Assembly: GCA_018266075.1 (NCBI GenBank) | Contig: JAFEBB010000041.1 | Coordinates: 1 to 64,000 of the forward strand | Direction: 5' to 3' | DNA: 64,000 bases | From: Deltaproteobacteria bacterium | GTDB lineage: Bacteria > Myxococcota > Myxococcia > Myxococcales > SZAS-1 | Shown: positions 18,355 to 18,907 of the stretch, one piece after another | Layout: each line of letters opens with the position of its first letter | Position numbering within the stretch: position 1 is the first letter of the stretch | The notes under the pieces: generated by a model | Seen by the model: only the letters and a program-made list of their open reading frames with translations | What the model was told of the DNA's origin: nothing | The model's database searches: none | Made by a program: the position numbers and the translations under genes

Positions 18355-18396
18355 CGCGAAACCCCATCCCCCGACCCCTTCCCCGTCTCACGCGGG
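18355..18396 (+). repeat. Left inverted repeat of DUF559 element (REP-like hairpin)
   Basis: The 42 bp are identical to the reverse complement of 18866-18907. From 18373 onward the sequence folds as CCCCTTCCCCG, a 7-nt loop (TCTCACG), and CGGGGAAGGGG: an 11-bp GC-rich stem extending a few bases beyond the shared block. Confidence 0.9.
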
Positions 18397-18460
18397 GAAG
18401 GGGAGTCAAGTGGGTGTCGGGGATGCGTGGTACCTCCTCTCGGGCGAGAGGGGGTGGGCG

Positions 18461-18874
18461 ATGGGCGAAAAACCTTGGTTGCACAGGATGCCTGTGCCGC
18501 GACGTGTTCGTGCACGGGCCATCACGATTGCGCGCGATCTCCGAAAGCAACCGACTCAAGGCGAGTGGCTGCTCTGGTCTGCGCTTCGTGGCTCACGGCT
18601 CGGTGTGAAGTTTCGACGCCAGCAATACGTGGGACCGTTCGTCGTCGATTTCTACGCGCCTGAGTTGCGGCTCGTCATCGAAGTCGACGGACCTCATCAC
18701 ATGAGGCAACTCGACTACGACCGCGAGCGCCAGGGGCATCTCGAGTCGCTCGGATTTCGCTTCCTGCGGCTCACGACGCCTGAGGTGGAGCGCGATCTCC
18801 CCGCGGCGATCGATCGAATCGCCAAGACACTTGCGACTCTTCGCTCACCCACCCCCGACCCCTTTCCCGCGTGA
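18461..18874 (+). CDS. DUF559 (Vsr-like PD-(D/E)XK endonuclease fold) protein
   Basis: The 137-aa product from ATG 18461 (alternative ATG 18488) matches DUF559: basic N-terminus with RARAITIARDLRKQPTQGEW, the family Glu in QGEWLLWSALR, the core KFRRQQYVGPFVVDFYAPEL, the acidic active-site strand LRLVIEVDGPHH, and a C-terminal GFRFLRLTTPEVERDL helix. The family is related to very-short-patch-repair endonucleases; its cellular role is poorly defined. The last residues (around PTPDPFPA) and the stop codon are encoded by, or directly abut, the right inverted repeat. Gene and repeat therefore appear to move as one unit. Confidence 0.88.
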   Translation: MGEKPWLHRMPVPRRVRARAITIARDLRKQPTQGEWLLWSALRGSRLGVKFRRQQYVGPFVVDFYAPELRLVIEVDGPHHMRQLDYDRERQGHLESLGFRFLRLTTPEVERDLPAAIDRIAKTLATLRSPTPDPFPA

Positions 18875-18907
18875 GACGGGGAAGGGGTCGGGGGATGGGG
18901 TTTCGCG
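18866..18907 (+). repeat. Right inverted repeat of DUF559 element
   Basis: This is the exact reverse complement of 18355-18396 over 42 bp. It overlaps the stop codon of the DUF559 gene (TGA at 18872-18874) and ends 29 bp before the start codon of the next lipoprotein gene. It may therefore form part of that gene's leader. Confidence 0.9.

Follow-up and report, generated by a model that had tools for sequence, protein, structure and literature searches.

The window, by which we mean the whole stretch of 64,000 nucleotides that was analysed, contains a DUF559 gene lying between two inverted hairpin repeats. Comparison within the window shows that the 42 bp at 18355-18396 form the exact reverse complement of those at 18866-18907, and the single gene between them, at 18461-18874, matches PF04480 with E=5e-27. 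Both the exact pair and the lone DUF559 gene had been claimed in a first-pass annotation of this DNA, and both are confirmed here. The same annotation had described each repeat as folding into an 11-bp hairpin. Single-strand DNA folding bears out the hairpins but not the stem length, which was set slightly low: the stem measures 12 bp in the upstream repeat (z -2.6), and is longer, at about 22 bp, in the downstream repeat (z -4.8). The features of the locus are as follows.

18355..18403, minus strand: upstream REP-like element (exact repeat, dispersed copies, DNA fold)
18432..18460, plus strand: inner hairpin before the gene, CCTCTCGGGCGAGAGG, whose G-rich tail is GGGTGGGCG (sequence; fold z only -0.8)
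18461..18874, plus strand: DUF559 gene, 137 aa (PF04480 match, AF2, Foldseek, active-site alignment)
18848..18907, plus strand: downstream REP-like element, into which the 3' end of the gene extends (sequence, repeat copies, DNA fold)

The upstream element, which includes the 42-bp repeat, is composed of a hairpin at 18375-18403 and a G-rich tail, the reverse complement of CCCCATCCCCCGA, at 18362-18374; this tail is directed away from the DUF559 gene. The downstream element opens with a gene-facing G-rich tail, CCCACCCCCGA (18848-18858), and continues with the long hairpin and then an outward tail, GGGGGATGGGG, the 42-bp repeat making up its final part. The gene starts with the ATG at 18461 and its stop codon, at 18872-18874, falls in the loop of the downstream hairpin, such that the repeat itself encodes the C-terminus of the protein.

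The inner upstream hairpin differs in sequence from the 42-bp repeat, and its tail faces the gene and adjoins the ATG. Neither this hairpin nor the gene-facing tail of the downstream element is noted in the first-pass annotation. A hairpin with a gene-facing tail is the arrangement typical of other DUF559 loci, unlike most of which the outer 42-bp pair of the window has its tails pointing outward. An Rfam scan returned no intron family, and only sub-threshold, miRNA-like chance matches.

The DUF559 protein

The only Pfam matches of the window protein are of the DUF559 type; no HUH/Y1 domain (PF01797) was found in the bracketed gene by the Pfam scan, and the fold is PD-(D/E)XK/Vsr-like. The AF2 model is confident (pLDDT 90.7), and a sequence comparison together with a Foldseek search with this predicted model gave 3hrl (NGO0050), I-Bth0305I (3r3p), AbaSI, PvuRts1I and Vsr as the nearest solved folds, with 3r3p being matched both by sequence (5e-4) and by Foldseek (2e-4). 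NGO0050 of Neisseria, the closest solved structure, is likewise of the DUF559 type and is described only as putative endonuclease-like. Residues E35, D63, E74 and H80, which we take from knowledge of the family to be those of the active site, are intact in the window protein and conserved in at least 216 of 219 sequences. The window protein is a predicted PD-(D/E)XK/Vsr-like nuclease.

Copies of the repeat in the window genome

A genome search located the 42-bp repeat not only here but at about 45 places. Most copies are solo and several form inverted doublets (L016, L020, L022, L025, L027), and this recurrence argues that the bracket is not the product of chance. The extracted copies have CGCGAAACCCCATCCCCCGACCCCTTCCCCGTCTCACGCGGGGAAGGGGAGTC in common, and the two members of a doublet are oriented towards each other just as are the 42-bp repeats flanking the DUF559 gene, with their tails outward.

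The genome carries a second DUF559 gene (L010, G000:C20:1140-1490), which is preceded by a hairpin and tail similar to the inner upstream ones of the window. Comparison of its flanks revealed no REP pair like that of the window, and in the alignment its active-site His region is lost (ELDDAQ---); this gene is probably decaying. Elsewhere, an IS200-type Y1 TnpA gene of 159 aa lies between two inverted copies of the window repeat (G000:C28:20931-22952, L013), and this gene also has CCCCGGGGCAAGCCCCGGGG hairpins of its own.

Because the outer pair has its tails outward and the same repeat also brackets the IS200-type TnpA, either DUF559 or TnpA may drive the repeat in this genome. For the window alone, the outer bracket could be coincidental, with the DUF559 gene having come to lie between two members of a REP family that is driven by IS200. 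Such a coincidence would fit the orientation of the outer pair, which is that of the genome's other doublets, as well as the bracketed Y1 gene, but it leaves aside the inner gene-facing hairpin and tail, which are present here as at other DUF559 loci, and the generality of the bracket across phyla described below. We regard it as unlikely, and it would in any case be compatible with a general link between DUF559 and REPs elsewhere.

Bracketing of DUF559 genes in other genomes

Brackets were scored as the best inverted repeat between two 300-bp flanks, a score of 25 or more being counted as a pass, and the cross-phylum set comprised 80 named loci from Proteobacteria, Chloroflexi, Nitrospirae, Omnitrophota, Desulfobacterales, Gastranaerophilales and others. 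An inverted repeat flanks 51 of 77 DUF559 genes from many phyla, as compared with 1 of 640 random places and 3 of 324 other short ORFs on the same contigs, and dinucleotide shuffles produced a bracket in 0-1%. Among the Xanthomonadaceae, the bracket passes in 75/110 DUF559 loci (control, 1/61), and in the Myxococcota 21 of the 27 testable stand-alone DUF559 genes are bracketed by inverted C/G-rich hairpins.

A finder for the hairpin together with its tail gave hits on both sides of 51/80 DUF559 loci and 0/884 control windows, and on at least one side of 74/80 loci and 24/884 control windows. The hairpin was absent from both sides in 10 of 214 DUF559 loci. The association between DUF559 genes and hairpins of this kind, which in relatives the first-pass annotation had made a check of its inference, is very strong, both there and in other phyla.

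Architecture of the repeat

The repeat unit consists of a stem, CCYTYYCC..GGRRARGG, followed by 2-3 nt and a G-rich tail, which faces the gene in most loci. The tail duplicates the 3' arm of the stem, frequently with a single A-to-T substitution (GGGAGAGGG/GGGGTGAGGG; GGGGGAAGG/GGGATGGGGG). Stem and tail have interruptions of equal length between their G-runs in 269 of 290 repeats; this table of interruption lengths is the informative form of the comparison, rather than the pooled identity between each tail and its own 3' arm, which is only slightly above that of shuffled pairs (0.782 vs 0.769). Certain classes have a second hairpin, variable in sequence, that fills the gap between the arm and a displaced tail; a pattern search run independently and with no requirement for pairing also found this hairpin to be self-complementary. 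No GTAG-type head was found at the foot of the hairpin, the flanking motif being the G-rich tail that copies the 3' arm.

A canonical G-quadruplex motif is present on the G-rich strand of 202 of the 318 repeats at DUF559 loci. The G-quadruplex was rejected as the universal recognised form, since it does not accommodate those classes in which a second hairpin separates the arm from the tail.

Coding sequence takes up 93% of the DNA, yet the repeats are mostly found in the gaps between ORFs. The downstream element begins a median of 19 nt past the DUF559 domain, and in 126 of the 173 loci with a downstream REP the stop codon is located within or past the repeat. At these 173 loci, the downstream repeat is usually translated, providing DUF559 with its C-terminus in the form of spurious-looking proline/glycine-rich ends.

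These positions bear on the idea that the hairpins serve to terminate transcription of the gene or to autoregulate it, with similar terminators elsewhere in the genome. While G/C-rich stems and mostly intergenic positions would suit a terminator, an inverted arrangement on both sides of the gene, a conserved tail and second-hairpin variants would not, and a stop codon so frequently inside or beyond the downstream copy would be odd for one. Furthermore, such pairs are all but restricted to DUF559 among the genes compared (3/324 for the others), and the repeats are lacking in genomes that lack DUF559, as described in the next section. A terminator or autoregulatory role is highly improbable.

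Copy number and the presence of DUF559

The main repeat classes were counted with a sequence pattern in 193 Myxococcota genomes. Five or more copies are present in 20 of 29 genomes with DUF559 and 7 of 164 without (p=8e-15), these being species counts in which the genomes are not phylogenetically independent; at the genus level, the difference is weaker yet significant (11/20 vs 6/70, p=2.5e-5). In a set of 149 Xanthomonadaceae genomes, copies occur in 79/79 of those with DUF559, with a median of 23 as against a median of 0 in those without, and at least five copies are found in 69/79 and 5/70, respectively (p=4e-25). Across phyla, dispersed copies are present in 42 of 50 named DUF559 genomes.

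The number of repeats does not follow the RAYT-type Y1 transposase (Y1_Tnp), which was counted in the Myxococcota only: no association was found in that phylum (p=0.32), and the transposase was rejected as a correlate of repeat number there. Genomes with hundreds of copies are mostly devoid of a strong Y1 gene.

There are exceptions, in which many copies occur without a detectable DUF559 gene: among others, G048 has 104, G188 has 203 and G014 has 16. A search for missed DUF559 genes in repeat-rich genomes without DUF559 gave weak matches or none, besides one remnant. The copy-rich genomes G048, G188 and G014 require either gene loss or another driver; for the first two, an assembly gap was considered as well. 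In G293, a frameshifted DUF559 remnant still has a repeat downstream (L330, G293:C2:49713-49820), and a few REPs are kept in this genome.

Repeat class, enzyme subtype and turnover

In genomes with several DUF559 genes, distinct repeat classes are found at distinct genes, and the upstream and downstream classes agree at 46 of 76 loci, compared with 10 by shuffling. Repeat class changes 30 times on the DUF559 tree as against 45.6 times when shuffled, with 0 of 200 shuffles being as low, in a test to which near-copies contribute and in which many forks are unresolved. The class CCCTCCCTTTCGC..GCGAAGGGGAGGG is present at two copies or above in 7 of 8 genomes with a matching DUF559 and in 1 of 61 other sampled genomes with DUF559 (p=6e-8); it also occurs in G279, which is without any DUF559.

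The repeats are also subject to turnover between species. In two species of 92% identity, 18 of the 19 alignable repeats occupy the same position, and in two species of 86% identity 6 of 14 alignable repeats are absent, the missing ones including a doublet as well as solo copies. These comparisons yielded neither a clean insertion boundary nor a target duplication, boundaries being not resolvable at 86% identity.

Two further explanations can be weighed against these data. In one, DUF559 is a selfish, homing-type endonuclease that inserts at pre-existing REP hairpins, and the repeats are generated by, for example, a RAYT/Y1 transposase. The presence of the homing endonuclease I-Bth0305I among the closest solved folds would be in keeping with this, as would the insertion sequences that are known to target REPs (PMC1525189), and the IS200-type TnpA bracketed by the repeat in the window genome. 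Yet the repeats are all but missing from genomes that lack DUF559, their number in the Myxococcota is unrelated to Y1_Tnp, with copy-rich genomes mostly lacking a strong Y1 gene, and their class follows the DUF559 subtype, all of which makes homing a doubtful account.

In the other, DUF559 is a maintenance nuclease that opens or resolves hairpins (cruciforms), and whose presence lets repeats of other origin be tolerated and is required for them to accumulate. The same copy-number dependence, class specificity and Vsr-like fold would be expected, but maintenance alone does not account for the location of the gene between two copies, one of which usually overlaps its coding region. We consider this explanation a little less probable still than homing.

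A proposed partnership between DUF559 and the repeat

The linkage of gene and repeat, the dispersal of the latter, the dependence of copy number on DUF559 and the specificity of class together point to an enzyme-repeat partnership resembling REP/RAYT, in which both the enzyme and the repeat are unrelated to their counterparts. Judged from sequence, stand-alone DUF559 proteins are probably nucleases dedicated to a family of short, REP-like hairpin elements. With somewhat less assurance, we lean towards a convergent REP replicator, based on PD-(D/E)XK and found in many phyla, in which each enzyme subtype would spread its own hairpin class by nick-primed copying. The RAYT-like system on a different enzyme that the first-pass annotation had inferred is supported, well beyond the window: the repeat is dispersed, DUF559 genes in relatives and other phyla are bracketed in like manner, copy number tracks DUF559 in two clades and class follows subtype.

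In such a replicator, the unit would comprise a hairpin and tail, the DUF559 gene, and a tail and hairpin in inverted orientation. The hairpin and tail would become exposed in single-stranded or cruciform DNA, for instance on the lagging strand; the nuclease would recognise the folded hairpin along with the tail that copies its 3' arm, and then nick there. Repair or replication from the nick could copy or transfer the short element into intergenic sites. Hairpins without a gene, whether solo or in doublets, would accumulate in the manner of minimal non-autonomous derivatives whose spread or upkeep depends on the enzyme. Bracketing, dispersal, the dependence of copy number on DUF559, class specificity, the intact active site and the turnover of positions between species were observed; we infer that the hairpin is cleaved, on which strand and where it is nicked, and that copying follows.

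RAYT genes always lie between two inverted REPs (PMC2817692), and TnpA_REP cleaves single-stranded REP (PMC8266576). The two systems are alike in that the gene is bracketed by two inverted hairpin repeats, repeats are dispersed outside genes as solo copies and doublets, an unpaired motif lies beside the stem, enzyme and repeat diversify together, and the dispersed type matches the bracketing pair. However, TnpA_REP is an HUH Y1 enzyme, whereas DUF559 is PD-(D/E)XK and has no HUH/Tyr domain; the DUF559 repeats, which are found across many phyla, have a G-rich tail copying the 3' arm of the stem in place of a GTAG head. Since enzyme and repeat are both unrelated, bracketed DUF559 genes are not filed as RAYT: DUF559 is probably a functional analogue of RAYT and is not a homologue, and the enzyme-repeat pair would be new, with a proposed working principle that is RAYT-like.

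Among other relatives, the EDxHD homing endonucleases (I-Bth0305I, 3r3p) have a related fold, sequence and catalytic residues, but they sit in introns or inteins, whereas DUF559 is free-standing between dispersed hairpins, with no intron. Vsr and Caulobacter VsrA share the fold, and VsrA the DUF559 domain. The accessible part of the VsrA report links the protein to DNA damage in vivo, proposes a role in T:G mismatch repair tied to cytosine methylation, and contains no association with repeats (PMC12907096).

REPs without a known RAYT have been described previously, in that CGTC-tagged REPs were reported without a transposase or known partner enzyme, in a study that also raises the question of which proteins go with palindromes that have no tag (PMC3733652). 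CGTC-type REPs were rejected as the partner of DUF559, their ATTCCC..GGGAAT core having 0 matches near DUF559 in the sampled loci.

No paper linking DUF559 to REPs was found in the literature searched, which did not cover subscription journals, so that novelty is uncertain. The partnership would assign a candidate enzyme to a very common family of G/C-rich hairpins, and provide a testable substrate for DUF559, a domain that is widespread and whose function is unknown. If true, a REP/RAYT-like partnership would have been invented convergently on the basis of different chemistry, and the finding might bear on the recombination near DUF559 segments that has been reported for Legionella (PMC12308824).
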